Positions 4,560 to 32,110 of a DNA stretch of 64,000 nt are shown here, in pieces. The notes beneath the pieces are model-generated. The model did not search any database. It was not told the origin of the DNA and worked only from the letters and a program-made list of their open reading frames with translations. A program made the translations under genes and the position numbers. Source of the DNA: Methylobacter marinus A45 (GTDB lineage Bacteria; Pseudomonadota; Gammaproteobacteria; Methylococcales; Methylomonadaceae); the NCBI RefSeq assembly GCF_000383855.1, contig NZ_KB912877.1, positions 1,522,616-1,586,615 of the forward strand, written 5' to 3'. Numbering within the stretch: the stretch's first letter is position 1; each line of letters opens with the position of its first letter.

Positions 4560-4561
4560 AA

Positions 4562-4927
4562 TTAGTAAATCTCCAATCCACGCAACGCATCCTTATGCTG
4601 CCGAATATACAATTCCAATGAAGCCCGCGCCGCCCGGGCCTTTTCTTCAATTCCGCTCGTGCGGGTGCCGATACGATCCTGAAACACAATATTGTCATTG
4701 ATTTCTATCCAGATGATATTGCCGGCGAAAATATCAGGGCGCTCGCGCACGGTAATGGTCCCGGCATAATCGGGTACTTCCCAGCCATTCATCAATTCCT
4801 CGTAAAATAAATGACCGACACGCGACAAGGTTTGATCGACAACCAGGCCGCCGATTTCAAACTGCGGCTCGACAGCTACGGCTGGCGACAGCATTAACAA
4901 TAAGACACTGAAGACGTAATATTTCAC
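4562..4927 (-). CDS. csgE: CsgE curli secretion specificity factor
   Basis: Periplasmic adaptor that gates CsgG and selects curlin subunits. It is 121 residues with a signal peptide ending AVAVEPQ. The family core is present: EIGGLVVDQTLSRVGHLFYEEL, the ITVRERPD segment and the C-terminal QDRIGTRTSGIEEKA region. Length matches CsgE of enterobacteria. The start ATG overlaps the stop of the upstream curlin-repeat gene by four bases (ATGA), so that unusual gene and csgE-F-G form one translationally coupled unit. Confidence 0.92.
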   Translation of the reverse strand: MKYYVFSVLLLMLSPAVAVEPQFEIGGLVVDQTLSRVGHLFYEELMNGWEVPDYAGTITVRERPDIFAGNIIWIEINDNIVFQDRIGTRTSGIEEKARAARASLELYIRQHKDALRGLEIY

Positions 4928-12271: not shown

Positions 12272-13853
12272 GGTGGACACTCTTTATATGGGTATTGCCG
12301 CTTTCGGTAGGTTCTATCAGCGCATCGGCCGCCCGCTGCTCGCTATGCATGGGATAAGCCTGGCTCATGATGGCGACCTCATCGTCTATGAAATTCAGTA
12401 TGGGTGTTGTATCAAAGCCGGTACCGATCAGCAGCGCACTGATCGTGATGGTAATAATCCGCTCCTTGATTACCGGATGATGAATACTGCGATAGGGTTG
12501 TACAGCACGCTTGGAACTGCTCATGAACATACGTTGGAACGCCCAGAGCAGAAAAGCCGCGGCCAGCACGTTGCCGGTCAAAATAGCGATTGCCACCAGC
12601 CAGCCGCGTTCCTGAATCGCCCCCTCTATCAGCAAATGCGCGGCATCGAAGCCCGGTGTGCCGGGCATGACCATCGTACTCAGCGCGGCAATCAGAAACA
12701 GCAGCGCGATCGTGGCATTAGTATCGAACAAGGCGCCCAGACGCGGAATAAAGGCCGTGCGGGTACGCTCATAAATCAAGCCGACGCTGAACAGCATGCC
12801 GGCCGTCGCCAGACCGTAAGCCAGCGACAGCAGAATACTGCCTTCCAGGCCCTGGGTATTGAAACAGAACAGGCCGATCACCAGCATGCCGGTGTGACTG
12901 ATAACGGCAAAAGCCAGCAAGCGCCGGATATTGATTTGCATGAGCGCCAGCAATGCACCGTAAAAAATACTGATCAGGCCCAGCGTCACGATATAATCGG
13001 CCCAGGCTTCGGCGACACCGGGAACCAGCGGCAAGATGAAGCGGACCACGGCATAAATGCCCAGCTTCAACCCGACCAGGAAAATGGTGATACTGGCCAC
13101 CGTGCCCTGTTCGGCCAGTGCCGGCAGCCAGCCGTGAAACGGAAACAGCGGCATGCGAATGGCGAAACCGTAAAACAGCAAAATGAAAATCAGCGTCTCG
13201 TCGTGTAAATAGGCGTTGTTCTGCTTGATGGTCAGCCAGTCAAACGTCAGCGGGTGCTCTGAATCGATCAAGCCAAAGCCCAGCAGCAAAAAGCCGGCCA
13301 GCGTCATCAGCAATCCGCAGCCCCAGTATTGCATTAAACCGGCGACGATCCAGGGCCTTTTGCGTCCGGTACCGGCATGCATGGTCAGCAAGGCCACGGG
13401 CAACAGTTCCAGCAGGCTCCACAGCCAGAACTGCATCACATTCAATGCCGAAAAAGCGCCGATTAATATTGCTTCATAACCGAGCAGGCAGGCGATGAAC
13501 TTACGGTCAATGACATGCCGGTTAATGATCGAATAGATCAGCGTCAGCAGCGTCAGCACGGCCGTCAGCGGAATAAACAGCACATTCACGCCATCGACGC
13601 CGACACTATAACTGAAGCCGAAAAAATGCACCTGCTCGGCCAGCTGAATCCCTGCCCGGCCGGCGTCGAAAACCTTCAGCAAATAGATACTCAGCAATAA
13701 ATTCACCAGCGTGCCGGCAAAGCCAAAGCGTAACGCGACAGCCGTTGAACGCGAGCATGCGACGGCGATCATCGCCGCGACCGGCACGAAAGTCAGGGCG
13801 CTTAATAGCGGAAACGCTGCCGATGCCGACCAGAAAGTTACATTGATATCCAT
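12264..13853 (-). CDS. NuoN/NuoM-related subunit of the DAB cluster with altered key residues
   Basis: Polytopic inner-membrane protein of 529 residues of the same antiporter-like superfamily, but divergent. The transmembrane-5 Glu is kept (LLELLPVALL, Glu149) and so is the transmembrane-8 Lys (GLKLGIYAVVRF, Lys263). The transmembrane-7 Lys is replaced by Arg233 (FAIRMPLFPFHGWLP). The transmembrane-12 Glu is Ala405 followed by His406, with a Glu only five residues later (HLLIEGAI). Start is ATG 13853 with GAGGA four bases upstream, seven bases after the dabB stop; a TTG at 13871 is possible but less likely. It overlaps the next gene. It may have a structural or regulatory role rather than full proton pumping. 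Confidence 0.8.
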   Translation of the reverse strand: MDINVTFWSASAAFPLLSALTFVPVAAMIAVACSRSTAVALRFGFAGTLVNLLLSIYLLKVFDAGRAGIQLAEQVHFFGFSYSVGVDGVNVLFIPLTAVLTLLTLIYSIINRHVIDRKFIACLLGYEAILIGAFSALNVMQFWLWSLLELLPVALLTMHAGTGRKRPWIVAGLMQYWGCGLLMTLAGFLLLGFGLIDSEHPLTFDWLTIKQNNAYLHDETLIFILLFYGFAIRMPLFPFHGWLPALAEQGTVASITIFLVGLKLGIYAVVRFILPLVPGVAEAWADYIVTLGLISIFYGALLALMQINIRRLLAFAVISHTGMLVIGLFCFNTQGLEGSILLSLAYGLATAGMLFSVGLIYERTRTAFIPRLGALFDTNATIALLFLIAALSTMVMPGTPGFDAAHLLIEGAIQERGWLVAIAILTGNVLAAAFLLWAFQRMFMSSSKRAVQPYRSIHHPVIKERIITITISALLIGTGFDTTPILNFIDDEVAIMSQAYPMHSEQRAADALIEPTESGNTHIKSVHHD

Positions 13854-13860
13854 CGGGTCC

Positions 13861-15423
13861 TCAAAATGCAATCAGCAAGGTTATAAAAATAAACAGCACC
13901 AGATAGCGCGGACTGAATAACAGCAGCTCGACCTTGTTGGCCGCGTAGCCCAACTGACGTCCATAGCGGATCGCGTTTTTGCCGATACCCCGCAGTACGA
14001 AGCTGTCTTCGAACCAATGCATAATGGCGGCTGCCCATTCGGTGATCTTGCCGGCCAGACCGCTGCCCTGCGCGAAACTGTCGACTTCATTATCGAGCCG
14101 GGCGCCGATCTTCTGCTCTTCGAGCTGAGCCAGCGTCGATATCGCGCGGATGGCAGGCGCCGATACGCCCAAGGTGCGGTCAACGATATGATCGTCAAAA
14201 TAAGTCAGATCGTGCGCCAGGCGGCGTATCGGCTTGACCAGGGTCCAATCGGTGATCTGATCGAGCCAGAACCGCTGCAAGGAAGCAACATAGGCCCAGC
14301 GCATGCGTGCAATGGCCGGCGCGACCGGCTTTATCGGATTATCATGGACATGATGCACGAGCGAAGGCGCAACCAATACCTGATAGCCGCGAACCACGGC
14401 ATGCGCGCAAAGATGCCAGCTGGCCAGCTGCCAAAAACCCAGGCCGCATTCCATGAACATCAAGCCCAGTTGGCCCGAGGTGGCAAACACCAGCGAACTC
14501 TTGACATCGGTTTGTGTCAAGCCAACGACAAAGCCGTAGACCGCCGTCAACAGCCCCGCGACCGCGACCAGAGCCATCGCCAGCGGCGCCTGCTCAAAAA
14601 TCGGCTCCAGCAGAATCAGCAGATAAACGCCGGCATGCACCATCACCGCGCCGTAAAATATGGCACTGGACGGTGTAGGCCCCTCCATTGCCCGCGCCAG
14701 CCAGGGCGTAAACGGTATCTGCGCTGATTTGACACAGGCCGCCACGGCGAAACAAAGAGCGATGACAGTGGCCTGGCCCGTCGATAATTGCGCCGATGCC
14801 GACGTCAGCCTAGCCCAGTTTACGTCGCCGGCCCAGGCATAGCTCAGGCCAATGCCCAGCAAAAATGCCGCATCGCCGATACGGTTGGTCACGAAAACCC
14901 GCGTGGCATTCTGGGCGGCGACGGGGCGCTCATAATAATAGGCGATCAGCAAATAGGAACAGAGGCCGGCAATCTCCCAGCCGATAAACGTGCCGACCGC
15001 GTTGCCCGATAGCACCAGCAACAGCATGGCGGCGGAAAACAGGCTCAAGATAAAAAAGAACCGGTGAAAGCCTGCCTCCTTATGCATATAGTTGGTCGAA
15101 AAGCGCATAACGATAAACAGCAGGATGGTAAACAGCGCCGCCAGCACGACGCCAAAGCCCGTGGTGAGAAAATTCACCCGGATATCCAGCGTCTCGCTGC
15201 CCAGCCATTGACCGACACTGAAGGAACCGGCGTTCTTGCCCATCATGTCGCCGCCCAGCAGCGTCAAAGTCAGCAGGCTGGACAGAATAATGGCCCAGAC
15301 CGCGATATCGACCGTCGTGGTTTCGCCTGCTTCACCGTCCAGCCAGCCGAACAGATGGCCGACCCCGATGGCTGCCGCGGCGGTAAACGGCAATAAAGGA
15401 ATCAAAATAACAATTAAATCCAC
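13861..15423 (-). CDS. dabB: DabB, NuoL-like inorganic carbon transporter subunit
   Basis: Inner-membrane NuoL/NdhF-type protein of 520 residues, shorter than true NuoL (about 610), as is usual for DabB/MpsA proteins that pair with DUF2309. The proton-path residues seen are Glu150 (FIGWEIAGLCSYLL), Lys232 (AACVKSAQIPFTPWL) and His263 in MVHAGVYLLI. A C-terminal amphipathic region and a last membrane helix (YLVLFIFITLLIAF) follow. Start is GTG 15423, with GGGGAG located in the last codons of dabA. In Halothiobacillus DabA-DabB this subunit is proposed to use proton flow to drive vectorial CO2 hydration by DabA. Adjacent genes dabA and three NuoM/N-like genes support a larger complex. Confidence 0.87.
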   Translation of the reverse strand: MDLIVILIPLLPFTAAAAIGVGHLFGWLDGEAGETTTVDIAVWAIILSSLLTLTLLGGDMMGKNAGSFSVGQWLGSETLDIRVNFLTTGFGVVLAALFTILLFIVMRFSTNYMHKEAGFHRFFFILSLFSAAMLLLVLSGNAVGTFIGWEIAGLCSYLLIAYYYERPVAAQNATRVFVTNRIGDAAFLLGIGLSYAWAGDVNWARLTSASAQLSTGQATVIALCFAVAACVKSAQIPFTPWLARAMEGPTPSSAIFYGAVMVHAGVYLLILLEPIFEQAPLAMALVAVAGLLTAVYGFVVGLTQTDVKSSLVFATSGQLGLMFMECGLGFWQLASWHLCAHAVVRGYQVLVAPSLVHHVHDNPIKPVAPAIARMRWAYVASLQRFWLDQITDWTLVKPIRRLAHDLTYFDDHIVDRTLGVSAPAIRAISTLAQLEEQKIGARLDNEVDSFAQGSGLAGKITEWAAAIMHWFEDSFVLRGIGKNAIRYGRQLGYAANKVELLLFSPRYLVLFIFITLLIAF

Positions 15424-15427
15424 GCGC

Positions 15428-18400
15428 TTAAACTCCCCACAGTTCAGGCTGTTTGATCAACACGGGTGCCACCGGCTCGGATTTGCCCCGATAACAATCC
15501 AGCGAACTCGGACAAACCGGCAGGTCCCGGGATTCGGCTTGCCACGGCACAAATCCCGCGCCGCGCTCGAAAACAAAAATATCGCCGCTGTCCGGATCTT
15601 TCGCGCTTAAATGCACCCAGCCGCCGGCGATCAGTTCGCGCAGGCCTTCCTGGCGCGCATAGATTTGTTCCAGAACCGAGGTTTTCGCCTCAACCAGTAT
15701 CTGCAGACGCATCGGCTCGTGAATTTCAACCATCTGCTTGGGCAGACCGGTGCGCAAATCGCTGGCCGTGCCTTCCATAACGCCGAACAGGCCGGTCACA
15801 TTATGCGGGACTTTGGTGCCGCAGCCGAAACGTTCGTTATCGATCGTGGAAAAATAGTATTCCAAATTGATGCCGGCGCCGACCGGGCCGGCGGTCAGCA
15901 GAATCGACTCGAGGATGCTGCCGTCCGGGTCCTGCGTCGGGTCGTAGGAAATCAGGAACACTCGCCGATCCAGGAACAAGCCCTGGGACAAGGCGCGCCG
16001 GCCGACCACGGCCGCGGCATTGGTCGCATGACCGAATTCGGGGCGAACCTGGCTTAAATCATGCGCCCGCAACGTCACGTGCTGAAAAGCCCGGGCCGGC
16101 GATGCCGGCTGCCCGGCAGAGACAAACCGCCGGCAGCGTTCATGCGCGGACAATTCCTGCGCCCGGCCGATGCAGGTCTTGAATCGCTCGAATTCCGCAT
16201 GCAGCGATGCCGGTATCAGGTCCAGATCGTACCAGGTCATCGCATCGCTGCAGGTGTCGTGCTGCATGCCCACGAACCAGCAATCATCAGGAATGACGAT
16301 ATTCTGCCGCGCCAGCAGCGCACGCACTTCCGGCCGGTTAGCCATGGCCGCGAACACGCGCGCATTCGGCCCGCCCTGGCGCCCGCCGCAGGCGCCGCAA
16401 TCATGCGCGGCCTCGTGCGGATTGTTCTGGCTGGTCGAGCCATGCCCGGCCAGCGCGACAATCGGCGCAAAGCCGCTGGTCAGGCCCAAAATACGCAGCA
16501 GCGCCGCAACCCGTTCGGCTTGCTCGCTATCGGTAAAGCCCAGTTTGGGCCGTTCGGCCGTGGCCGGCGTGGACGTATCCTCGGAAGTAAACTGCAATTC
16601 GGTGGCAACCGGCGGCACCACAGTCCGGCTCAGCCAGTCGGTAACCGTCTTATGATAGCGAGGCAGCAAGGTTTTACCGAGCAGCCCCGCCAGGGTGAAC
16701 GGCGCCAGCACATCGATCGCGGCGTGCGACAGTAACAGGTTGCGGCGCAGGCTCTGATACAACAGATAGCCAAAGCCCCGGCTCAGGCTGCGGCCTTTCT
16801 GGCGCGCGGACAAGGTTTTTTCGTGGCCCTGCCGGGCGATTTCATCGACTTCATGGGCCGGCGTGACGACGACCGGGCACAGCGGCGTCACATGTGTGGC
16901 ATCGAGGCCTTTATAATTCATCGGAATGCCGAAAAATCCGGCCACGCCCAGGGTTTCAATAGCCGGGTTCAGCTCTTCGAGATGGCGACGGAAACTTTCC
17001 TCGCGCTCATCCATGCAAACGATGATTTGCGCTTCGGGCCGGGTCGTGCGTCTGGCCCAGCGCCCCCGGTTATGATTGGCGTGCAAGGCCTGAAACAGCA
17101 TATCGCGATAATGACGTTCATAGGCGCATAGCCAGACTTTGCCGCGTTCTGTTGCATTGAATTGGTCCAGCACGGACAGCATCAGCAGCAAATCCTGCTT
17201 TTTCAGGGCTTTTATATGCGCCGCATTGATCCCCAAGTGCTGACAGAGCCGGAACAAGCGCCAGCCGCTGCAATAGATGGTGTGATTGCGCTCCGCCTGC
17301 TGCACCGCCAGCGGACTGCAGCACCAGATGCCGATCAGGTCGGCAAGCTGCTGCCAGTCGGGACGCTCATGCCGTTCAGACCCGGCAAGAAACGCCAATG
17401 ACTCCGCGCGGTCGGCCAGGTATTCCGGCAAATTGCCCTGGTATAACTTACTGCGCACGATGAATTCGGACAGGTTTTTATGGAAATAAGACTTAAGGCT
17501 GCTCAATTTGGCCTCGATCAGCCAGGTTTCGCGGCAAATCTGGTTCAACCAGAGCCTGTCCAGCGTCAGCCGGATCGCCAGATAGTCGGCGAGCTTGGGG
17601 TGGGCGTCGTTGTCCGTGTGATAGTGCGGATGATGCTGGCGCCAGTTGATCAATCCAGACCAGCCGGGCACTTCCAGCGCCAGGCGGCGCAAATACCCGT
17701 CCCATTGGGCCTGCGGTATTTCCAGATGGCTCAGTTGCAGGATGATCGCATCGACGGCATCCTCCGGCAGTTCGGCCATAATCTGTTGCCAGTCCGGCAA
17801 TTCATGCAAAAACGGATTGGCATCATAGGCGGCAGTTGCGCGCCAGGCACCATAAAGACCCAATTGACTGCGCTCTGGGATAGGCCATGGCGCCAAGCCT
17901 TCATCCAGGCCCGAGGCGCAGATGCGGATCAGCTGCGGGCGCACGGAATCGAGGATGTCTATGCCGGTCAAGTGCTTGATGAAGCCGCGCAAGGTCATGC
18001 CATCACCCATCTCGGCCAGCAGCTCATCCAGATTCTGGCGCGCCTGCTGCTGCATTTGCTGATGCAAAGGCGAATCTTTCATGCTGATGCGCGCCCGGGT
18101 CAGCCAGTCTTCCGCCTGCTCCATGGATAACTCGAGCAAGTCCTCGGGATGCAGACTGGCCTGCTCCATATCCAGCTTGGCCAGAATGCTTTCCCACAAG
18201 GGCCTGATCGCGCTCGCCGGCAATTGATTGCGCACCGGCTCCGGCACATCGGCTTGCACCGACTCCAAGGCCGCCATTTCTTCTATCTGCCAGTTCAATT
18301 GGCTGACCGTAATCGACGGCAGATCATATAACAGCGCGATGCGATAAATATCCTTGCGCCTGATGATTTTATCGCCCGTGTGACAAATAATCTGTTCGGC

Positions 18401-18697
18401 CTGCAAGCCGGGCTCGGCGCCCAGCGCGGCTTCGATATCCCGGTCATTGATACGCCCTGTCCGATAATGCTCCCGGCTGCATGCTTCAGGCAGATAACCA
18501 TGAGTGCCGGTCAACGCCTCGAAGGCCGCCAGAGCTTCTTCAAAGGGCAGATGCTGGAAACCGTGCAGGGTATTGTGATGCACGAAATCTAGGATAGGCG
18601 CCTGTCCGGGCAGCACATGATCCAGGTGCTCCAGAGCCTCGGTCACTTGCGCGCGCAAATCGGCTATGGCGCTGGATTTTAATGGTGATACTTGCAT
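15428..18697 (-). CDS. dabA: DabA, DUF2309 carbonic-anhydrase-like subunit
   Basis: Peripheral cytoplasmic subunit of the DAB inorganic-carbon accumulator (UPF0753/DUF2309), thought to hydrate CO2 to bicarbonate in one direction when coupled to DabB. The beta-carbonic-anhydrase-like zinc site is visible: Cys561 and Asp563 in [12 protein letters not shown], His752 in [10 protein letters not shown] and Cys767 in [10 protein letters not shown]. The 15-residue spacing between His and Cys equals that reported for Halothiobacillus DabA2. At 1,089 residues it is a long member, with most extra length before the zinc site. The other family block [19 protein letters not shown] is present near the C-terminus. 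It lies five bases before dabB and 23 bases after a NuoM-like gene. Confidence 0.93.
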
Positions 18698-18720
18698 TAC
18701 TACAGAACTCGTTTTATTTC

Positions 18721-20187
18721 CTAATGGACGGGATTAATCACGCTGTTCATCTGGAACAGGGTTGCTGTTGACAGTTCAATCAACGGTGCAGGCAGCAATC
18801 CGAACACCACGATACCCGCCACCAGTATACCAGCAGCGATTAACTCCGAAGGACGCAGATCCTCTATCTGCTGCATGTGAGGCTTTACCGGCCCGGTAAA
18901 CAGCATGCCGATAGTGCGGATCGCATAGGCGGCGCTGATCAGCATGCTCAGGCTGAAAAATACCATTAAACTGCCCCAGCGCTCAAAGCCGCCGATCAGT
19001 GCGTGCAGTTCGGCGACAAAACCGATCGAGCCCGGCAGGCCCATCGCGGCCAGCAATGTCAAGGAAGTAAAAACGGCGAAACGAGGCATCACCTGAACCA
19101 GCGAACTGTAATCCTGGATGTTGCGCGTATGCGTGCGCTCATACAGCAACCCCACCAGCAGGAACAAGGCGCCGGCAATCAGGCCGTGGGCGTTCATTTG
19201 CAGGACCGCGCCGGTAAAACCCGCTTCGTTCAAGGCCGCGATACCCAGCAAAATGATCCCCATATGACTGACCGAGGAATAGGCGATCATGGCTTTCAGA
19301 TCGCTTTGCCGCCAAGCCAGCAGACCGCCGTAGATCATGCCGAACAAGGCCATGAAAACCAACAGCGGCTGCAAGGTTTGAGCCGCTTCCGGCAACATGA
19401 CGACGGCTCGCAGCAGACCGTAGGCCCCCATTTTCAGCAAGATGCCGGACAGCAGAATACTGACCGGGCTGGGCGCTTCGACATGCGCCAGCGGCAGCCA
19501 GCCGTGCAGCGGAAAAATCGGCATCTTGACGCCGAAACCGATTAAAAAGCCCAGCAAGGCCCAGACCTGCTGATCTTTCGGCATGTTTTGCGATACGTGC
19601 ACCATCGCGCTCATCAGGGACACATGTTCAGGCACATACTCATACACCGCAATCAGGCTGATCAGCATGAATACCGAACCGCCCATGGTATACAGCACGA
19701 AATTAAGGCTGGCCGCATGGCGTCTTTTGCCGCCCCAGCGATCGATCAGAAAAAACAGCGGAATCAGGGTCACTTCCCAGAAGATATAGAAAACCGCCCA
19801 GTCCTGAGCCAGAAACACGCCCAGCATGCCGAACTCCAGCAACAGCATGCAGATATGATAGCCCTTGACGCGGCGGTTAATGCTAAGAGACGCCAGCATC
19901 GCGATGGACGTCAGCAGGGTCGCCAGCACCAGCATCGGCATGGATAATCCGTCCAGGCCTAATGCATAAGCACTGCCGAACTTGGGATTGAGCGGAAAAT
20001 ATTCGCTGAACTGCACGCCGGCATCATGCCGTTCATACTGGTACGCCAGCCAGCAGCTCAGTATAAAAACTAGAGTGGTGAACAGATTGCCGATACCACG
20101 GATGACCTGAGTGTTCTGACCCGGCGTTAAAGCCAAAAGAAGCGCGCCAACAGCCGGTGTCCAGAGTAGTATGCTAAGAATCCCCAT
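18721..20187 (-). CDS. NuoM/NdhD-type antiporter-like subunit (first copy) of the DAB cluster
   Basis: Polytopic inner-membrane protein of 488 residues, the typical size of NuoM. All canonical charged positions are present: Glu138 ([14 protein letters not shown]), Lys221 ([16 protein letters not shown]), Lys252 ([11 protein letters not shown]) and Glu393 ([11 protein letters not shown]). It is the first large gene of the dab run and ends 23 bases before dabA. AGGA lies rather far (12 bases) upstream of ATG 20187. The gene is probably read from the regulated promoter at 21045-21077 together with the small membrane gene at 20411-20809, although a 223-base gap separates them and could hold another promoter. 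Confidence 0.87.
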
Positions 20188-20410: not shown

Positions 20411-20809
20411 TCACATGAACACCCAAAAGTACAATCCGGTAACACCGACTGTGCAGGTCGTTACCAATTTTGCTTTCTGAAGGGATGAGCATTCCCGCCA
20501 ATAACAGCTCATGTCCGCCATGCAACGCTCCCGCTTGGCGCGCAGATATCCGATAAACCGGGGCAACGCGCGCCACAGTCGATGCAGTCCGAACAACGCC
20601 AGGCACAGCAACAGATAGAACACGATAATCTGGCTCTGGTGGCGCGTTGTATGAAATACATGCTCAATGAGTTCCTCAAGCCCAAGCTCGAACCACTCGA
20701 AGGCAATATGGCCGAACGCGAGCAATGCGTGCAACAGCACATCATAGGTACTGATCACAACAACAATCAGGACGGTCCAAACGATCGTTTTTCGATGAGC
20801 TTTAAACAT
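20411..20809 (-). CDS. Small three-helix membrane protein, Ci-island family (copy A)
   Basis: 132-residue inner-membrane protein of no family I recognise. It has three hydrophobic segments (residues about 9-30, 64-80 and 112-130). Between the first two is an acidic/His-rich stretch EELIEHVFHTTRHQSQIIVF. Start set at ATG 20809, which has GAGGA eight to nine bases upstream; the frame is open back to 20878, but this start gives the same length and N-terminus as its paralogue at 27197-27598. Shared blocks are LIEH-F-T--H--QIIVFYLLL, GL-RLWR and YW-E-S-L-K. It sits downstream of a regulated promoter (21045-21077) and upstream of the dab genes, so it is a candidate accessory component of Ci uptake. 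Confidence 0.75.
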   Translation of the reverse strand: MFKAHRKTIVWTVLIVVVISTYDVLLHALLAFGHIAFEWFELGLEELIEHVFHTTRHQSQIIVFYLLLCLALFGLHRLWRALPRFIGYLRAKRERCMADMSCYWRECSSLQKAKLVTTCTVGVTGLYFWVFM

Positions 20810-21195
20810 CACGCGCATCCTCAGGATTTCGTTAAACATCGGAATAAAACCGAACTTTGCCCGGTTTATGTCGTACATCCCGAAACGAGCCCTAAAACGC
20901 CCTGATCATCGATTACCTGTCTTCTACAATTTTCCCTGCCTGGGCCTGGCAAGAGATGCCAATGGCATTTCCACTAAATAACATGGCCCGATGGGCTCTG
21001 TTATCAAGCGCATGCATACCCTTGCCGCTCTCATGTGCAGCGTCATTGTATTTGCGTAACCTTTCAATAACCTTTCAGAGCTTGGGCTGAATTTTGCAGC
21101 CGTTCAGTTCTTCTGGTCAGCCGGCGCTGTTCACTCGCCGGACCATTGCGCAATCCTTCTCGCGACCAAGCATTATCTTCTCTTCGCAGCGCCGA
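20810..21195. other. Regulatory spacer upstream of copy A
   Basis: 386 bases. From right to left it holds a GC-rich imperfect hairpin just past the SulP stop (21115-21144, CCGGCG/CGCCGG, no T-run), the regulated promoter at 21045-21077, and a predicted untranslated leader of about 230 bases. Confidence 0.5.
21045..21077 (-). promoter_or_regulatory. Tandem-repeat response-regulator box plus -10, site 1
   Basis: On the minus strand two TGAAAGGTT-type repeats with an 11-bp period (21077-21068 and 21066-21057) are followed after six bases (CGCAAA) by TACAAT (21050-21045). The second repeat overlaps where a -35 would be. Direct repeats at 11 bp just upstream of a -10 are typical of OmpR/PhoB-family activators. 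Nearly identical to 25049-25081. Target is the small membrane gene and probably the dab genes. Confidence 0.75.
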
Positions 21196-22884
21196 TTAAC
21201 TGGCTGCCTTTGAATCGAGCGCGGCTTGAATTTTCCCGGCGCCACCCAAGGGGCCGGCAGTTTCCGGTTCGAGCAAGGCTTTAACTTTCCCTTTCTCCTT
21301 CAACGCCTTAACTTCCTTCAAGTCATCGGGCACCGGCTGAATTTTTCCCTTGCCCTCCAGTTCCCTGGCCTCTACCTTGATGTTATTGTCCTGGGCGCTC
21401 AACATGAAATCATGAATGGTTTCGAGAATGTCATGATCGATAAACTGCGTTTTTGAACCGTCAATCAGAACCGTGCTGTTTTCTTCGATCTGGTTGAAGT
21501 ACTGTCTCAGCCGGGCGCGATTGAGGAAGGTAACGTCCTTGTTCAAATTCAGGACATAATGATCGCCGATTTGAGTTATTGAAATGGCGGCATGGTAATT
21601 CGCCCGAATCACATAATACAGGCCGACGACAATACCGACCGCAATGCCTTTTAACAGGTCGGTCAGCAAAATCGCGACGATTGTGACCACAAAGGGTATC
21701 AACTGGCTCCAGCCTTTATGGAAAAACTCGACAAAAATTTTCGGCTTCGCGAGCTTATAACCGGTTTGCAACAGTATCGCCGCCAGGCAGGACAAGGGGA
21801 TATTGTTAAGGAAACGCGCGAGAAACATCACGCTGAGCAGCAGGAACGAGCCATGCACGAAGCTCGACACTTTGGTCTGCCCGCCGGCATTGATATTGGC
21901 GGCACTGCGCACGATCACCGCGGTAATGGGAATACCGCCGATCAGGCCGCTGAGCATGTTGCCGACGCCCTGGGCTTTCAGCTCGCGATTGGTTGGCGCC
22001 ACGCGTTTCAACGGATCCATTTTATCAGCCGCTTCGAGGCTTAACAGAGTCTCAAGACTGGCGATGATGGCTATCGTGAAGGCAACCGTATAAACCTCCG
22101 GCTTGGCCAGGAAACTGAAATCGGGGAAGGTAAACAACTGCAGAAAATCCGCCGGCTTTTCAGTGACCGGCAACGATACCAGATGTTTGCTGGAAATCGC
22201 CCATTCCGGCGCCATGCGCAAGGTCACCAGATTGTAGACAATGCCCCAGGCGACGACCAACAGCGCGCCGGGAATCAGCCGGAATAAAGTCACACGCTTG
22301 ATAAAACTGCTTTCCCATAGCATCAGGATCAGCAGCGACACGACACTGACGACCGTGGCGCCGGGCGAAATCGCTTTTAATGCCCCGCCTAACGCTTGGA
22401 CGGTTGCCAGCGCGGTTTCCCGCATATAGCTTTCGTCGCCTTCGAAATTGAAATCATAGCCGACGGCATGGGGGATTTGTTTCATGATCAGGATCAGACC
22501 GATCGCGGCCAGCATGCCTTCGATCACTGCCGAGGGAAAATAGGCGCCGATAGCACCGGCCCGGAGGAAGCCGAGCACCAGTTGCAGTACGCCGGCCAGC
22601 ACCACGGCGACCAGAAACCCCTGGAAACTGCCCAGATGGTCAATGGCATTGAGCACGATCACGGTCAAACCCGCGGCCGGACCGGAAACACTGAGTTGCG
22701 AACCGCTCATCCAGGCGACGACCAAGCCGCCGATCATGCCGGCGATCAGCCCGGAAAACAATGGCGCGCCGGAGGCCAGCGCCACGCCCAGGCAAAGCGG
22801 CAAAGCAACCAGAAACACGACCAATCCGGCGGGGATGTCGTGATGCAGGTGCTTTATATAGTAACTAAAATGTTTGTGAATCAT
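21196..22884 (-). CDS. SulP-family anion transporter (candidate bicarbonate transporter)
   Basis: Inner-membrane SLC26/SulP transporter of 562 residues. Features: N-terminal DIPAGLVVFLVALPLCLGVALASGAP-type segment, the family loop MSGSQLSVSGPAAGLT, PSAVIEGMLAAIGL, the conserved AADKMDPLKRVAPTNRELKAQG loop, and PITAVIVRSAANINAGG. A short STAS-like domain lies at about residues 445-510 (VLIDGSKTQFIDHD), with a Lys/Glu-rich C-terminal tail containing two related GKIQ and KGKVKALLEPE-like segments. SulP proteins carry sulfate, bicarbonate or other anions; the position between carbonic anhydrase and dab genes favours bicarbonate (BicA-like role), which is inference. RBS region unremarkable. It follows the Usp gene by 102 bases. 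Confidence 0.83.
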   Translation of the reverse strand: MIHKHFSYYIKHLHHDIPAGLVVFLVALPLCLGVALASGAPLFSGLIAGMIGGLVVAWMSGSQLSVSGPAAGLTVIVLNAIDHLGSFQGFLVAVVLAGVLQLVLGFLRAGAIGAYFPSAVIEGMLAAIGLILIMKQIPHAVGYDFNFEGDESYMRETALATVQALGGALKAISPGATVVSVVSLLILMLWESSFIKRVTLFRLIPGALLVVAWGIVYNLVTLRMAPEWAISSKHLVSLPVTEKPADFLQLFTFPDFSFLAKPEVYTVAFTIAIIASLETLLSLEAADKMDPLKRVAPTNRELKAQGVGNMLSGLIGGIPITAVIVRSAANINAGGQTKVSSFVHGSFLLLSVMFLARFLNNIPLSCLAAILLQTGYKLAKPKIFVEFFHKGWSQLIPFVVTIVAILLTDLLKGIAVGIVVGLYYVIRANYHAAISITQIGDHYVLNLNKDVTFLNRARLRQYFNQIEENSTVLIDGSKTQFIDHDILETIHDFMLSAQDNNIKVEARELEGKGKIQPVPDDLKEVKALKEKGKVKALLEPETAGPLGGAGKIQAALDSKAAS

Positions 22885-22986
22885 ATGCCCGTCCCAAATC
22901 TGGATCTAATAATTGTTGTGTTGAACCTTAATCCGCAATTAGCCAGTCCTAATTCGAATAAACCAGCAATCTCGCTATTCCTTGTT

Positions 22987-23865
22987 TCAAGGCTTTATCG
23001 CCATGAATGTCGTATGCACGGACCTGATCAGCGTCGCCGTCGTACTGCCGATGCGCAAATGGTCAAGCCCGGTCCGCCCTGCCGTCGCCATGACGACCAG
23101 GTTGTAATGCTGCTCGATGATATGTTCACGAATCGCATTGTGAGCCGAGTCGGCACCGTGAACGACAAAAAACTTCAGGTTGCCGGCAAGACCGGGCAGG
23201 TGTTGTTCGGCAACCTCGTGCAATTTTGCCAGCCGCTCCTGCTTTTGCCGCTCGAATTGTTCAGGCTTGCTGAAGTCGCCGCACAACGCATGGAACAGAT
23301 GCACTTCGGCGCCGGTCGCAAGCGCGATGTCGTGTGCGTACGGTAAGGCGGCAAAGGAATTCAGGGAAAAATCCGTAGGCACCAGGATTTTACGGAAAGG
23401 CGTAAAAGCTTCTTCATCCTCGACGATTACAATCGGGCGGTTGCCGAGGCGCAGCACTTTCTCGGTAGTGGACCCCATTAACATGCGCATGAAACCGGCT
23501 CTTCCGTGACTGCTCATGACCACCAGATCGAACCGCTCGGATGCATCGGCGATAGCCTGGGCCGTATTGCTATTTTGTTCGGTCACGCTATCCGCCAGGA
23601 AATCGGTTCCCACAGCCTCCGAGACAAATCGCCGAAGTTTTTCCTTGATGGCCTGAGCGATGGAGGCGGGATCGCCATCGGCATGAAAACTATCGACATC
23701 ATAGTGAAACCCCTCCATATCCGAGTACAAATCATAGACATGAAGCGGCGAGATCCGGCCTTTATAGATACGCGCCAATTCCTGTGCAACCGGCAAGGCT
23801 TTACGGCAAAAACCGGAAAAATCGATGGGAACAAGAATGTTATAAGGGTTTGGTGCTTCGTTCAT
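22987..23865 (-). CDS. Tandem universal stress protein (UspA x2)
   Basis: 292-residue cytoplasmic protein with two UspA domains in tandem (about residues 8-145 and 155-290), the UspE-type arrangement. Domain 1 starts YNILVPIDFSGFC and ends in VVMSSHGRAGFMRMLMGSTTEKVL; domain 2 starts KILVPTDFSLNSFAALPYA and ends VVMATAGRTGLDHLRIGSTTATLIR. Both ends contain the G-2x-G-9x-G-S/T ATP-type motif, so nucleotide binding is likely. Start is ATG 23865 with GGAG eight bases upstream; the frame is open to 23931 but without ribosome site. It lies between can and the SulP gene on the same strand. Usp proteins often accompany SulP transporters, where a regulatory role is assumed. Confidence 0.85.
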   Translation of the reverse strand: MNEAPNPYNILVPIDFSGFCRKALPVAQELARIYKGRISPLHVYDLYSDMEGFHYDVDSFHADGDPASIAQAIKEKLRRFVSEAVGTDFLADSVTEQNSNTAQAIADASERFDLVVMSSHGRAGFMRMLMGSTTEKVLRLGNRPIVIVEDEEAFTPFRKILVPTDFSLNSFAALPYAHDIALATGAEVHLFHALCGDFSKPEQFERQKQERLAKLHEVAEQHLPGLAGNLKFFVVHGADSAHNAIREHIIEQHYNLVVMATAGRTGLDHLRIGSTTATLIRSVHTTFMAIKP

Positions 23866-24255
23866 GCCTTGAACTCCAAAGCTATTGTTAGAATTGATAA
23901 TGCTAATAAAGTCGGCTTTAGCCGGAAGCATCGAGCGCTATCGCCGGTGGCCGTGTCAAATGCGGAAACGCCCTCGGTAACAGACTGTACCGGCCTGGCT
24001 CTCCGCGGATAAAACTTGTGCTCCGTAATCTCCTGCCCATCTATGAAAAAAAGTACTACCAACGCCATATAATTCACAGCATATGGGCCATATTCAATAT
24101 TCATGGGCCGCCTGTGCAGATCAGGCGGCCGCCGGTAGTACGAGGGGCAATGACTAAGGAGAACGATTTTTTCATGGTGCCTGCGGTGTTGCCGGTCAAA
24201 AAGCGGCAGACAGTTGTCGGGGGTTGAACATAAACAACCCAAACCGTCGATCATC
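23866..24255. other. Spacer between can and the Usp gene
   Basis: 390 bases without a convincing gene. An eight-base GC hairpin (GCCGCCTG / CAGGCGGC, 24107-24129) lies in the middle without a T-run. The Usp-SulP pair may have its own promoter here. Confidence 0.4.
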
Positions 24256-24936
24256 TTAGGCTGAACGCAATTTCTTCTCAGGCAAGGGTCTTTCCGTCTC
24301 GTGGTAATCGTATTTGAAAATCGGCTCAATCTCGGTATCGGGATACAGCGTAATCAGCGGTTTCAGCAGACCGTCGTTAAGACCATAGACCCAACCGTGC
24401 AAGGTCGGCCGATTGTCTTCATGCCAGGCTTGCTGAATGATCGACGTATGGGCCAGCGTCTGCACCTGCTCCAGAATATTCAATTCAACCAGTCGGTTGA
24501 CGCGTTGCTCTTCCGTCGGCAGAGCATCTATTTCGGCCTTGTTCAGGCGATAAATATCCTTGATGTGCAAGAGCCATTTATTGGTGATGACCAGTTGGGA
24601 GCTTTGCCGGCCCAGTGCCGCCTTGATACCGCCGCAGTTATAATGCCCGCACACGATGATATGCTTGACCTGCAGCACGGTAACGGCATATTGCAGCACG
24701 CTCAGGCAATTGAAGTCGGTCGCAATCATCTGGTTGGCGATGTTGCGATGAATAAACATTTCGCCGGGTTCGGCATTGACGATAATTTCCGCCGGAACCC
24801 GGCTGTCCGAACAGCCGATCCAGAGAAACTCAGGCTTTTGCTCTTTCGCCAACTGGGTGAAAAATTCAGGATTACTAACTTTTTTTTGCCTGGCCCAAGT
24901 TTTATTGTCACTTAATAATTTTTCAAATGAGTGCAT
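24256..24936 (-). CDS. can: Beta-class carbonic anhydrase
   Basis: Cytoplasmic zinc enzyme interconverting CO2 and bicarbonate. The 226-residue protein has all beta-class ligands: Cys42 and Asp44-Arg46 in WIGCSDSRVPAE, and His98 and Cys101 in IIVCGHYNCGG. Length and sequence resemble E. coli Can (YadF), including HRNIANQM and the LHGWVYGLNDGLLKPL C-terminal block. It is preceded by a predicted regulated promoter (25049-25081) whose -10 lies about 115 bases upstream of the start. Divergent from the two-component system. With DabA also hydrating CO2, its role here may be to equilibrate CO2 and bicarbonate delivered by the transporters. Confidence 0.94.
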   Translation of the reverse strand: MHSFEKLLSDNKTWARQKKVSNPEFFTQLAKEQKPEFLWIGCSDSRVPAEIIVNAEPGEMFIHRNIANQMIATDFNCLSVLQYAVTVLQVKHIIVCGHYNCGGIKAALGRQSSQLVITNKWLLHIKDIYRLNKAEIDALPTEEQRVNRLVELNILEQVQTLAHTSIIQQAWHEDNRPTLHGWVYGLNDGLLKPLITLYPDTEIEPIFKYDYHETERPLPEKKLRSA

Positions 24937-25048
24937 AGTGATCTCTCTTTTTAATTTGTATTGTCAGTAAGTGCCCGACCAATGATTAATGTTATGCTTT
25001 TCAGCTGTATAACAAGAGTTACCAATCTTGACATTTCAGTATGAAATG

Positions 25049-25081
25049 ATTGTATGTGTGTAACCTTTCAAGAACCTTTCA
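25049..25081 (-). promoter_or_regulatory. Tandem-repeat response-regulator box plus -10, site 2
   Basis: On the minus strand two TGAAAGGTT repeats, 25081-25073 and 25070-25062, 11 bp apart, then AC and six bases (CACACA) before TACAAT (25054-25049). It differs from site 1 at only about three positions across the module. It points toward can. On the opposite strand TTGACA (25029-25034) and TGTATG (25052-25057) with 17-bp spacing could be the promoter of the regulator gene, so bound regulator could also affect its own gene. Confidence 0.75.
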
Positions 25082-25098
25082 CATGAAATTAAGAATGC

Positions 25099-25770
25099 AT
25101 GAATATTTTATTAATAGAAGACGATGCGGTATTAGCGGATGGCTTGATGCATACGCTAAGCGCTAATGGCTACTCGGTGACTTCCGCCACCAAAGGCAGT
25201 TATGCCGAGCAGTTGCTAGACTCGCAAGGCTTCGATTTAATCGTACTGGACCTGTGCCTGCCGGATATGGACGGCCTGCAACTGTTGCGCAGGTTCAGGC
25301 AGCATAAAATAGCGCTGCCGATTTTGATCCTGACCGCCCGCGACGGCATCAGCGACAGGATCGAGGGCATCGAACAGGGCGCGGATGACTATATGACCAA
25401 GCCGTTCGAACTGCGGGAATTTGAAGCGCGCGTCCGTGCCCTGATTCGGCGCTGCTACGGCGGCTTTAGCAACGATATCGTCATCGGACGGCTGGCACTG
25501 GACACTCAGAGCCATCAAGTGCTGGCCGACGGCCAGCCGATACAACTGTCGGCGCGTGAATACGGCGTCCTGGAAATCTTGTTGATACAGGCCGGCAAAG
25601 TCGTCAGCAAGGACCGCATCGCTCAGCGCCTGTCGGCTGACGGCGAGGCGCTCGCCGACAATGCCATCGAAGTCTATATCCATCGCGTCAGAAAGCGCAT
25701 AGAACCGTACGATGCCGTGATCCGTACCGTGCGTGGACTGGGTTACCTGCTGGAGACGGCCGATGGCTAA
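25099..25770 (+). CDS. OmpR/PhoB-family response regulator (QseB/TctD-like)
   Basis: 223-residue cytoplasmic DNA-binding regulator. Receiver domain residues 1-115 with the acidic pair EDD at 7-9, phospho-acceptor Asp51 (LIVLDLCLPDMDG) and the conserved Lys in YMTKPFE. The C-terminal winged helix (about 125-220) has LSAREYGVLEILL and VYIHRVRKRIE...IRTVRGLGYLL. Its start lies 17 bases from the tandem-repeat box shared by the can and dab-side promoters, which makes it the prime candidate to bind them. It overlaps the sensor kinase gene by eight bases. Binding itself is inference. Confidence 0.9.
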   Translation: MNILLIEDDAVLADGLMHTLSANGYSVTSATKGSYAEQLLDSQGFDLIVLDLCLPDMDGLQLLRRFRQHKIALPILILTARDGISDRIEGIEQGADDYMTKPFELREFEARVRALIRRCYGGFSNDIVIGRLALDTQSHQVLADGQPIQLSAREYGVLEILLIQAGKVVSKDRIAQRLSADGEALADNAIEVYIHRVRKRIEPYDAVIRTVRGLGYLLETADG

Positions 25771-27151
25771 AGTCAGAAGCCTCAGAACCGAAATCCTGTT
25801 CCGTCTGATTATCCCGCTCATTTGTTTTATCGCGATCGAGAGCGTGCTTTCCTACTTTGTCACGCTGCACTATGTCAATGAAACCTATGATCGGTGGCTA
25901 TTGGATTCGGCCCGCTCACTGACGCAGGAAATCAAGGTCAAGGACGGCAAGGTGCACGTGGAACTGCCGCCCGCCGCGCTGGAGATTTTCAAATGGGACG
26001 AGTTAGATCAGACCTTTTTTAAAATCATCTCCTCCGAGCAAGGCATGATCGTCGGAGACAGTTTTGTGCCGGAGTCCTTCGACCCGAGCGTGGATTGGTC
26101 GCGCCCGATCTTTTTTGAGGACGAGATTCGCGGCGAACCGGTCCGGGTCGTGTCCATGCTGGTCATCCGCGACGAAACCCCGGACAAGATTTTTGTCCAT
26201 GTCGCCGAAACGGTGAATAAACGCCGGGACATGATGGTCGACATTTTATTGGCCGACCTGGTCCCGCAGATTATTTTGACCCTGTTTGCCGGTACTTATC
26301 TGCTGGCAGGCTTAAAGCGCGGCTTGAAGCCGCTGCATGTGCTGGCCGATGAAATCGCCCAGCGCTCGCCGCGCGATTTGAGCCCGATCGCCGAAACGCA
26401 TGTGTTTCTCGAAGTCCGCACACTGACAGACACCATTAATGATTTGCTGGCAAGACTGGCGGCGGCCATCGCCGCCCAGCAACGGTTCGTCGCCAATGCC
26501 GCCCATCAATTGCGCACGCCGCTGGCCGGCTTGAAACTGCAGGCGGAACGCGCCTTGCGGGAACAGGACCTGTCGGCCATGAAGCCGGCTCTGCTGCAAA
26601 TGCAGAGCTCCGCCGACCGCGCGTCCCATACGATCACGCAATTGCTGGTGCTGGCGAAATCGGGCCCCGTCGACGGCATGAGCGAACTCAAACCGGTCAA
26701 CCTGGAAACGCTGGTCAAGGAGACCTGCATGGATTGGGCGCCTAAAGCCCTGCAGCGAAAAATGGATCTCGGTTTCGAGGGTCCGAAGCAGGCTGTTTAC
26801 GTGCGCGGCGACGAGGTCCTGCTGCGGGAGCTGCTGGCCAATCTGCTCGATAACGCCATCTTATATGGCAACGAGCACGGCAGTATTATTGTTAAGCTGA
26901 GACGGAATCCCACGCCCAGCCTGATTGTCGAAGACGACGGGGCCGGCATCCCCGACCAGGAACGGGAGAAAATTTTCGAGCGCTTTTATCGCATCCCGGG
27001 CAGCTCCGGCAACGGTTGCGGCCTGGGGCTGGCGATTGTCAAGGAAATTGCCGATCTGCACAAGGCGCGCCTTGAACTGAGCCGGATCAGCGCCGCGGGC
27101 GGCACGCGCGTTATTATCGTATTTCCGAATTTAACACCGACGGCCATTTAA
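25763..27151 (+). CDS. TctE-like sensor histidine kinase
   Basis: 462-residue inner-membrane kinase, partner of the overlapping regulator. Start ATG 25763 lies within the last codons of the regulator gene. First membrane helix at about residues 12-33, a periplasmic 2CSK_N-type domain of about 125 residues, second helix around ADLVPQIILTLFAGTYLL, HAMP-like linker, H-box FVANAAHQLRTPLAGLKL, and an ATPase domain with N-box LLANLLDNAILYG, VEDDGAGIP and GCGLGLAIVKEI. Family members such as TctE sense extracellular carboxylates. The stimulus here could be bicarbonate/CO2 status or pH by gene context, which is speculation. Confidence 0.88.
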   Translation: MAKVRSLRTEILFRLIIPLICFIAIESVLSYFVTLHYVNETYDRWLLDSARSLTQEIKVKDGKVHVELPPAALEIFKWDELDQTFFKIISSEQGMIVGDSFVPESFDPSVDWSRPIFFEDEIRGEPVRVVSMLVIRDETPDKIFVHVAETVNKRRDMMVDILLADLVPQIILTLFAGTYLLAGLKRGLKPLHVLADEIAQRSPRDLSPIAETHVFLEVRTLTDTINDLLARLAAAIAAQQRFVANAAHQLRTPLAGLKLQAERALREQDLSAMKPALLQMQSSADRASHTITQLLVLAKSGPVDGMSELKPVNLETLVKETCMDWAPKALQRKMDLGFEGPKQAVYVRGDEVLLRELLANLLDNAILYGNEHGSIIVKLRRNPTPSLIVEDDGAGIPDQEREKIFERFYRIPGSSGNGCGLGLAIVKEIADLHKARLELSRISAAGGTRVIIVFPNLTPTAI

Positions 27152-27196: not shown

Positions 27197-27598
27197 ATGA
27201 TTTCATCCCATAACCTAAAAATCATCTTCGCCTCAGTCGCGCTCGGCACTGTTCTTCTGATACCCGATGTCGTGTTCGGATTTGTGTATGAAGTGCTGCA
27301 TGGCTTGTATGAAGTGCTTGAAGAAGTGTTCGATGTGCTGATCGAGCACCTTTTTGATACCGGCACCCATGAAACGCAAATCATCGTGTTTTATTTGCTG
27401 CTGGCACTGATCGGTTATGGGCTTTACAGGCTGTGGCGCCTCTCGCTGCGCTGGTTTGACACAATCAAGGGCGCATGGACCCGGCAAAAATCGAATGCGC
27501 GGCTTTATTGGCAGGAATCCTCCTGGCTCAGAAAAACCGGGATCGTGGCGGTTAGCCTGGTTCTCATCAGTTTCCTGGTCTACTGGCACACGATGTAA
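27197..27598 (+). CDS. Small three-helix membrane protein, Ci-island family (copy B)
   Basis: 133-residue inner-membrane protein, paralogue of 20411-20809. AGGAG lies six bases before ATG 27197. Three hydrophobic segments at about residues 8-30, 62-80 and 113-130. The loop after helix 1 is acidic (YEVLEEVFDVLIEHLFDTGTH) and is followed by ETQIIVFYLLLAL, GLYRLWR and YWQESSWLRK, all shared with copy A. It follows the sensor kinase by 46 bases and is probably co-transcribed with the two-component genes. A paralogue at each end of the island suggests a function tied to it, for example as sensor partner or transporter accessory. No family name recognised. Confidence 0.75.
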   Translation: MISSHNLKIIFASVALGTVLLIPDVVFGFVYEVLHGLYEVLEEVFDVLIEHLFDTGTHETQIIVFYLLLALIGYGLYRLWRLSLRWFDTIKGAWTRQKSNARLYWQESSWLRKTGIVAVSLVLISFLVYWHTM

Positions 27599-30649: not shown

Positions 30650-32110
30650 CTAAAAATACAATTGTCCGCGCAGCATGAAGGTGTCCAGGTTGTCAGGCTG
30701 GCCGCCGCCGACCGTGGTCAAAGGCGAATTCTCAACCTCCAATGCTCTGTTGTAGTCCGCCATAAAACGGATATTGTTGTTGACATACCAGTTCAACGCG
30801 ACCGTAATGTTGCTCATCTGCCCGCCCTTCGAATAATCCGTTAAATCGACTTCCGCGTAACGAGCCGCGAGCTCCCAGGCGCCCAATCCGCCATTGGCCA
30901 GACTGAATGGTTTTTTCGGGTCCACATGATAGAACTTGCCTTTCTTGTACTTGCGCGATTCGCCGGTCAAGGTCCATGAAGCCTCGCCATACCAGCCATC
31001 AAATTCCAGATTGTCGGAACCGTCTTTCCGATCCAGCCACATATGGGTATATTCGCCGCCCACCGTGAAAGGACCATACAGCGCGTTTGCTTCCAGTCCC
31101 ACCATCTTGATGTTGTTGACGTCCTCGATATGCCCCGTATCGATCAGATTAAGATTGGACATGTGAGAAGTCTCATAGGAAAACCGCAAATCCTTGTCAT
31201 TGACATCGTCTTTATGATCCGGAACCCGGTAGTTGCCGGCAACGCCCAAATGAATCACCTTGGTTTTTTCATTGATCGGCGCATAGGTCCAGCGAGAGCT
31301 GATCCCCCAACCTTCATCCGCCATATTTTTTTCTTTGTTCGGCGTGACGGTATCGCCGTAGATACCGACTTGTCCGGTCCAGTCTTTGTTCAGGCTTGCG
31401 ACATTAAGACCGATGGCACGATCCACGGTAGGCGCGTTCAACACATCCATCAACGACCGCTCCATAAACATCAGGTCGTTTGAACTTTCCTGCAACTCGC
31501 GGCTGAAGGCCTGCTTTTGTTGCCCGACAGTGATCGCCAAAGGAATTTCCAGCGCTTTTAGCCCATGATATTGCAGGAACATGTCCTTGACCCCGACCGA
31601 GTTATCGGCGAAGTCCACTTGGCTTTTAAATTCCCAATCCTTGAAGAAAACACCGGTGAATTCCATACGCGCACGGCGGATTTCCGTGCCGTCATTGGCT
31701 TCAACATGATTGCCTTTGCTATCCAGATAATCGTCACCGCTGCTGTATGAGGCATCGGCATGAATACGGCCGCCCAGCTTGAACTGAAAATTTTTATCCG
31801 CCGTTTCAAACTGTACGCCTTTCTTATCCAGCTTGACCTTGACTTGCTCGGCTTCCTTCATATGCTCGTCCAGCGCCTTCAGTTCGTTGGTCTTCAGCGC
31901 CAGGTCATTGCGAATCGCCTCCAGCTCGGCCTTTTGGCTGGCGGTCTCTTCCACTTTTTCGAAAGTTCCCAGCTTGATCCGGTTGGGGCCGGGTTGAGCG
32001 TAGATTTGTTGCGTCGTGCTGTCGACATACAGATCAATAGCAAAAGCAGAGGATGACAGGCTCGCCCCCAGAACGCCCGCCACTGCCAGAGTAACTTCGG
32101 AGAATTTCAT
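30650..32110 (-). CDS. Phosphate-selective porin (OprO/OprP-like)
   Basis: Outer-membrane porin of 486 residues. Signal peptide residues 1-24 (ends SSAFA), then a short coiled-coil-like region (KVEETASQKAELEAIRNDLA to KLDKKG), then a beta-barrel of the Porin_O_P family: FKLGGRIHADASYSSGD, RRARMEFTGVFFKDWEFKSQ and a C-terminal strand ending in Phe (TFMLRGQLYF). The coiled segment before the barrel is common in this family and may drive trimer formation. A tandem Pho box just upstream (32162-32202) supports induction under phosphate limitation and uptake of phosphate or polyphosphate. Confidence 0.87.
   Translation of the reverse strand: MKFSEVTLAVAGVLGASLSSSAFAIDLYVDSTTQQIYAQPGPNRIKLGTFEKVEETASQKAELEAIRNDLALKTNELKALDEHMKEAEQVKVKLDKKGVQFETADKNFQFKLGGRIHADASYSSGDDYLDSKGNHVEANDGTEIRRARMEFTGVFFKDWEFKSQVDFADNSVGVKDMFLQYHGLKALEIPLAITVGQQKQAFSRELQESSNDLMFMERSLMDVLNAPTVDRAIGLNVASLNKDWTGQVGIYGDTVTPNKEKNMADEGWGISSRWTYAPINEKTKVIHLGVAGNYRVPDHKDDVNDKDLRFSYETSHMSNLNLIDTGHIEDVNNIKMVGLEANALYGPFTVGGEYTHMWLDRKDGSDNLEFDGWYGEASWTLTGESRKYKKGKFYHVDPKKPFSLANGGLGAWELAARYAEVDLTDYSKGGQMSNITVALNWYVNNNIRFMADYNRALEVENSPLTTVGGGQPDNLDTFMLRGQLYF

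Follow-up and report, generated by a model that had tools for sequence, protein, structure and literature searches.

The window analysed here, a stretch of 64,000 nucleotides from Methylobacter marinus A45 (contig NZ_KB912877.1, positions 1,522,616 to 1,586,615), raises the question of why two nearly identical 33-base promoter modules stand before two operons for inorganic carbon, and which regulator they serve. One module faces the operon of the beta-carbonic anhydrase gene can, and the other faces the operon of dabA, a gene for an inorganic-carbon transporter subunit. We consider it probable that the response regulator encoded at 25099-25770 uses both modules as its operator-promoters and would thereby co-induce the can-usp-sulP and mem155-nuoM-dabA operons under inorganic-carbon scarcity. 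Sequence comparison establishes that the modules exist, that they are rare and conserved, and that they are associated with the regulator gene and with the genes of these operons. The two sites and the adjoining two-component system are the following.

21045-21077, minus strand: site 1, a tandem 11-base-pair (bp) box (21058-21077) and the -10 element TACAAT (21045-21050), facing the mem155-nuoM-dabA operon.
25049-25081, minus strand: site 2, a tandem 11-bp box (25062-25081) and the -10 element TACAAT (25049-25054), facing can and divergent from the response regulator gene.
25099-25770, plus strand: response regulator of the OmpR family, TctD-like, predicted binder of both sites (PF00072 and PF00486; tree; box co-occurrence).
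25763-27151, plus strand: sensor histidine kinase with a 2CSK_N sensor domain (PF08521, E 2.4e-37; PF00512; PF02518).

The 33 bases of site 1 read TGAAAGGTTATTGAAAGGTTACGCAAATACAAT and those of site 2 read TGAAAGGTTCTTGAAAGGTTACACACATACAAT, with 3 of the 33 positions unlike. In both modules, two TGAAAGGTT direct repeats at 11-bp spacing are followed by 7 bases and then by TACAAT. An earlier note on this DNA had described near-identical modules at 21077-21045 and 25081-25049 on the minus strand, differing at about three positions and facing can and a dab-side small membrane protein; the coordinates, the count and the annotation all agree with it. The six bases that it placed before TACAAT are in fact five, counted between TGAAAGGTTAC and TACAAT. 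The distance of 18 bases that it gave between site 2 and an OmpR-family regulator is correct, as the start codon at 25099 lies 18 positions past 25081.

Two copies 4 kilobases (kb) apart might resemble each other by chance or through a recent duplication of a promoter segment. We reject both origins on the basis of shuffled windows, genome rarity and unlike flanks, and leave them next to no probability. The 20-base repeat pair occurs twice in the window at 0 mismatches, against 0.05 matches expected at up to 3 mismatches in shuffled windows. In the whole genome (4,988,792 bases), which the note had proposed to search for unrelated copies, sites 1 and 2 are the sole copies at up to 2 mismatches. 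Four further copies carry 3 mismatches (two such weak copies with a slightly stricter pattern), and the reversed pattern gives 2 at up to 3. Beyond the module edges, the promoter sequences of the two sites are dissimilar in an alignment judged by eye, and the pair is thus not a segmental duplication. Through the family, the box is kept while the spacer bases change, and this conservation already refutes either origin.

Does the box belong to the neighbouring regulator? We surveyed 237 genomes of the family for the box (at up to 2 mismatches) and for the regulator (at E 1e-60 or better), and found the former in 144 and the latter in 126. The box is present in 122 of the 126 regulator-positive genomes vs 22 of the 111 regulator-negative ones; one of these 22, G042, probably reflects a contig edge, since its kinase lies at the contig end (locus L171). 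Box matches in the regulator-positive genomes total 255, compared with 32 for a reversed control pattern, and in the regulator-negative genomes 26 compared with 25. Within the DabA-positive genomes, the box occurs in 94 of 98 with the regulator and in 14 of 68 without it, so the presence of DabA is not the explanation of the association. The same test on the closest paralog of the regulator in the genome (44% identical) gives 112/175 vs 32/62 (P 0.10).

Nine proteins with the same DNA-binding domain are encoded in the genome, and another OmpR-family member could bind the boxes, the neighbour being a bystander. We regard this as very improbable, because the box follows the neighbouring regulator over the 237 genomes and does not clearly follow its closest paralog. 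The recognition-helix pattern shared with TctD, IE[VI]Y[IV]HR[VL]RK, is exact in 33 of the 61 methanotroph regulators and in 26 of the 28 Pseudomonadaceae regulators; six of the eight other regulators of the genome were aligned, and the pattern is found in none of the six.

The position of the box was surveyed at 61 loci, namely 60 hand-chosen regulator loci and the window. At up to 3 mismatches, 51 of them have a box that points away from the regulator and lies no more than 60 bp from its start (49 at up to 2, 37 at up to 1); a box pointing towards the regulator is found at none, and so is the reversed pattern. Ten loci lack a regulator-adjacent box. At three of these the can operon is detached and the box stands upstream of can, at a distance of about 1 kb; at one the box is weaker, and the other six hold more distant regulator copies, 61-67% identical. 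Since the box lies near the regulator start codon in many sampled relatives, a bound regulator should influence the expression of its own gene there as well. The earlier note had put forward the neighbouring regulator as the binder; the co-occurrence, the paralog control, the position at 51 of 61 loci and the box and geometry of TctD back this as a prediction from DNA and protein sequences.

Neither site is among the entries of a consensus scan for ordinary -35/-10 promoters. Among 121 distinct methanotroph boxes (at up to 2 mismatches), no -35 is conserved, and TAnnnT stands at one single offset in 108, the next best offset reaching 15; tandem 11-bp repeats in place of the -35, as the note had it, are thus borne out. 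PhoB promoters have tandem repeats in the place of the -35 and the -10 at a set distance, and such fixed spacing is typical of activators that contact sigma. The sites share with PhoB-type promoters two direct repeats 11 bp apart, the absent -35 and a sigma-70 -10 at constant distance, and differ from them in the repeat sequence and in the branch of the regulator. In PMC4513871, two PhoB half-sites are separated by 5 nucleotides.

Three observations lead us to infer that the regulator activates both promoters: a -35 is missing, the spacing is fixed, and TctD acts as an activator at opdH. A repressor would instead cover the -35 region and block polymerase. Blocking is possible near the regulator's own start, where the box overlies the -35 position, and TctD of Pseudomonas aeruginosa counteracts PhoB at shared promoters (PMC4513871). 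We nevertheless find repression unlikely: promoters listed with no -35 hexamer should require an activator, and the constant 7-base spacing to the -10 resembles that of activators touching sigma. The boxes beside TctD homologs in relatives share this geometry, and in P. aeruginosa TctD activates opdH, with a TctD motif before tctD and before opdHtctCBA (Bielecki et al., PMC4513871).

We propose that the neighbouring kinase phosphorylates the response regulator, a dimer of which would bind the two repeats at the -35 position and recruit sigma-70 polymerase to the -10 located 7 bases downstream. Such a promoter would be of the class II activated type, with the regulator in the -35 place and the polymerase contacted at a set distance from the -10. 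Site 2 would then switch on can-usp-sulP, and site 1 would switch on mem155-nuoM-dabA together with the subsequent antiporter-like genes. Carbonic anhydrase, the SulP bicarbonate transporter and the DAB CO2/bicarbonate pump may in this way rise jointly when inorganic carbon is scarce. We infer the signal, low CO2 or bicarbonate, from the target genes, which are listed below.

24256-24936, minus strand: can, beta-carbonic anhydrase (PF00484, E 4.3e-52; NCBIfam PRK10437, 251.8 bits vs a cut-off of 251).
22987-23931, minus strand: usp, double universal-stress-protein domain (PF00582).
21196-22884, minus strand: sulP, SulP-family anion transporter, putative bicarbonate transporter (PF00916).
20411-20878, minus strand: mem155, small membrane protein (155 amino acids), first gene behind site 1, with no family match.
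18721-20187, minus strand: NuoM-like antiporter-type subunit (PF00361; NDH_I_M above cut-off).
15428-18697, minus strand: dabA, inorganic-carbon transporter subunit (PF10070, E 1.2e-258).
13861-15423, minus strand: NuoL-like subunit, DabB-type (PF00361 and PF00662).
12264-13871, minus strand: second NuoM-like subunit (PF00361).
10694-12280, minus strand: further antiporter-like subunit, end of the putative operon (PF00361).

After site 2, can, the double-Usp gene and the SulP transporter gene follow on the same strand. Site 1 sits within the 317-bp gap downstream of sulP and is followed by mem155, the NuoM-like gene, dabA, the NuoL-like gene and two more antiporter-like genes. The window scan found no terminator-like site in the stretch from sulP to site 1, and the latter may thus act as an internal booster as well. 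As in the DAB complex, DabA (PF10070) is accompanied by antiporter-like partners of PF00361, and from this gene content the dab cluster is a candidate CO2/bicarbonate transporter, transport itself being putative. The cluster differs from that complex in that four antiporter-like (PF00361) genes lie around dabA at 10694-20187, not one dabB-type partner, and in the small membrane protein in front.

For the targets across the family, we used a query set of genes and assigned to each box the member with the closest start at most 1 kb downstream, so that a gene outside the set may intervene. The inorganic-carbon genes of the set are two kinds of beta-carbonic anhydrase, alpha-carbonic anhydrase, SulP, SulP-Usp, NuoM-DabA, small membrane proteins and Usp. 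One of these is nearest downstream for 55 of the 62 boxes at the regulator-centred loci, and for 31 of the 49 boxes at 40 box-picked loci, which were hand-chosen among the box matches listed, mostly with at most 1 mismatch. The remaining boxes include those of two OpgC genes, two BBP2 porin genes, a CitMHS transporter gene, an outer-membrane efflux protein gene and an ATP synthase A-chain gene, as well as intragenic and unassigned ones. In the genus Methylobacter, both boxes are found in 4 of 4 genomes, before can and before mem155-nuoM-dabA, one copy having 2 mismatches. Genome G023 has its can-usp-sulP operon some 600 kb away from the regulator, and the box is still present there, with 2 mismatches (L163).

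Which known regulator does this one resemble? Its nearest characterised relative, absent from the earlier note, is TctD, the regulator of tricarboxylate uptake. The methanotroph regulators make up a single clade of the tree (100/99, starred) beside the pseudomonad TctD branch (95/74, unstarred), and this joint branch is set apart from Escherichia coli BasR and QseB (96/94, starred), with the caveat that some branches are long and the long-branch paralog L290 falls inside the joint branch. By this phylogeny, the regulator groups with TctD, not with PmrA or QseB. Membership in the curated families was rejected throughout: the regulator scores 203.6 bits vs a cut-off of 337 for TctD (NCBIfam PRK15479) and 224 vs 330 for PmrA/BasR; for the QseB and QseC models the scores are 188.8 vs 345 and 230.4 vs 475, respectively. 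The two pseudomonad homologs that were scored also stay under the PRK15479 cut-off (288 and 277), and TctD is the best model match of both. With PmrA/BasR and QseB the regulator shares the OmpR subfamily, PmrA being its best NCBIfam model and BasR the nearest solved structures; the cut-offs and the tree separate it from both.

An exact box scan of an 84,980-species collection gave at least 116 stretches, of which 80 were examined (19 methanotroph, 37 Pseudomonadaceae, 6 Oceanospirillales-type and 18 other records). Among the matches listed, an in-register -10 is present in 19/19, 30/37, 5/6 and 2/18 of these groups, and a divergent regulator homolog within 200 bp in 12/19, 30/37, 0/6 and 0/18, respectively. 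Downstream of the box, 27 of the 30 Pseudomonadaceae records with a divergent regulator have an OprD-family porin homolog within 1.2 kb or a TctC homolog within 4.5 kb (TctC in 26, OprD in 9); the other 3 hold fewer than 450 downstream bases, and the Pfam names are based on L175 and L216. In four Pseudomonas records (L192, L196, L225, L231), the 3' flanks of the exact boxes are nearly the same, and the stretch examined contains no regulator homolog; in L231, a 685-amino-acid protein with no Pfam match stands behind the box.

In another family of the order, relatives of the regulator are 60-68% identical, and the box is kept before OpgC and RND-efflux genes. That sample of 27 boxes at 20 loci, 3 of which belong to the window's own family, gives 14 OpgC, 10 efflux, 1 Can and 2 with no assignment. 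OpgC-like acyltransferase genes behind a box are seen in L346, L354, L358 and L360 and in two genomes of genus g16 (L127, L130), which is Methylomonas-like judging from a promoter shared with L179; several of these loci also have an RND-efflux gene behind a box, and in L346 a can gene comes after OpgC.

TctE carries a 2CSK_N domain, and so does the kinase here. The system is like TctD-TctE of Pseudomonas also in its box, in the 7-base spacing to the -10, in the orientation of the box away from the regulator gene, in a similar recognition helix and in the neighbouring tree branches. It is unlike TctD-TctE in its targets, which are an OprD-type porin and TctC there and carbonic anhydrase, SulP and DAB here; the two boxes of the genome face can and mem155-nuoM-dabA, not tricarboxylate-uptake genes (opdH, tctCBA). 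The regulators are about 40-43% identical. For the kinase, the identity of the sensor domain is 24-31% with 15 TctE-type kinases (core 35-43%) and 43-90% with 10 methanotroph kinases. A place in the TctD branch, a retained TctD box and other targets together point to a TctD-type system wired to inorganic carbon. We see roughly even chances that a TctD-family system was rewired from organic-acid uptake and now serves methanotrophs of the Gammaproteobacteria as the master switch for acquiring inorganic carbon, with branch, box and spacing frozen and target sets swapped. If true, the kinase would be a sensor of CO2 or bicarbonate shortage, and the exchanged sets would be tricarboxylate uptake in pseudomonads, OpgC and RND efflux in the other family, and carbonic anhydrases, SulP and DAB here. 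Such a system would be a clear example of regulatory rewiring: operator and spacing stay constant, and target genes are exchanged.

The same relatives suggest another signal. The regulator may co-control both operons while the kinase senses a carboxylate, as TctE does, an envelope cue or pH; the role of carbonic anhydrase and SulP would then lie in pH or anion balance. Relatives of the system are tied to tricarboxylate uptake in pseudomonads and to OpgC and RND-efflux genes in the other family, and one box of the family lies before a CitMHS transporter gene. The SulP protein matches the models of BicA and of the dicarboxylate transporter DauA, both below cut-off, and is nearer to DauA. On the other hand, alpha-carbonic anhydrase, two kinds of beta-carbonic anhydrase, several SulP types and DAB stand under the box across genera, which is a convergence on inorganic carbon, and the sensor domain is far closer to the methanotroph kinases than to the TctE type. 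A signal other than inorganic carbon is possible, and we rate it as rather doubtful.

Several results weigh against co-induction of both operons by low inorganic carbon. The surveyed genomes are related, and the P values therefore overstate the independent evidence, though the matched controls are telling despite this kinship. For 8 of the 38 in-register boxes at the box-picked loci, the query set offers no gene within 1 kb, and unrelated genes also stand behind some boxes, namely those for a BBP2 porin, CitMHS, an outer-membrane efflux protein and the ATP synthase A chain. The OpgC and RND-efflux targets of the other family led us to reject the box as an invariable marker of inorganic-carbon genes. 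Read-through from sulP into the dab operon is possible, given the gap with no listed terminator-like site. In the literature searched, we found no experiment on DNA binding by this regulator or on its response to CO2. For DAB as a universal member of the regulon, the test weakened the case: the box is found at 4 of 20 further dab operons in regulator-positive genomes, a figure biased low because these were drawn from loci not previously selected by box, vs 0 of 18 in regulator-negative genomes (2 of 20 loci being dropped for want of a NuoM-like gene; P 0.11). A box precedes nuoM-dabA in at least 26 of the 98 genomes with regulator and DabA, in genera g1, g2, g3, g10 and g12. By these box positions, the DAB operon is a regulon member in some genera, Methylobacter included, and not a core target. 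The single regulon proposed in the earlier note therefore keeps its support, with two copies in the genome and the association with the regulator, but its DAB member is confined to some genera.

The LysR-type regulators CcmR, CmpR and CbbR control carbon concentration through bicarbonate transporters and carbonic anhydrase. They share the kind of target gene with the system described here and differ from it in protein family and in the signal path, which is two-component here. A response of carbonic anhydrase genes to the removal of CO2 is known from one methanotroph, Methylococcus capsulatus, where all five are raised 2.0- to 3.8-fold within 3 h (PMC11423575); nothing ties this response to our regulator. 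The literature searched, by title and the start of the abstract and with subscription papers mostly outside its scope, turned up no regulator of this response and no paper linking a TctD-like regulator to carbonic anhydrase, SulP or DAB. The term 'two-component' is absent from the available portion of an inorganic-carbon review (PMC10880623), and the accessible part of an eLife atlas (PMC8041468) mentions TctD solely in citing PMC4513871. The present analysis names a candidate regulator with two predicted operators and a 33-base site that is directly testable. For about half of the family genomes (126/237 with the regulator), the regulon is accessible from the sequence.

A few further features of the locus and its relatives deserve description. 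A paralog of mem155 adjoins the kinase gene.

27197-27598, plus strand: mem133, 35% identical to mem155, with no Pfam family.

For mem155, no Pfam or NCBIfam match was obtained. Relatives of mem155 stand behind a box in L135 (directly) and at other loci, and relatives of mem155 and mem133 adjoin SulP genes; the two proteins look like an unstudied component of the inorganic-carbon machinery. Triple boxes, with three repeats in succession, occur at promoters in L144, L149, L150, L116 and L120. A TTGACA promoter for the regulator, picked by eye on the plus strand near 25028, was dropped as it is not conserved in the sequences of congeners, and Rfam and tRNA scans of the window gave no matches. 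A box with an in-register -10 stands before the gene of a BBP2-type outer-membrane porin in two genera (L138:3538-4764, L168:3525-4916), and this porin is perhaps an outer-membrane route for bicarbonate. In L136, the ATP synthase A-chain gene (3778-4566) lies behind a box, downstream of the kinase. A PF07396 gene of the phosphate-selective-porin type at 30650-32110 lies near the system and has no box.

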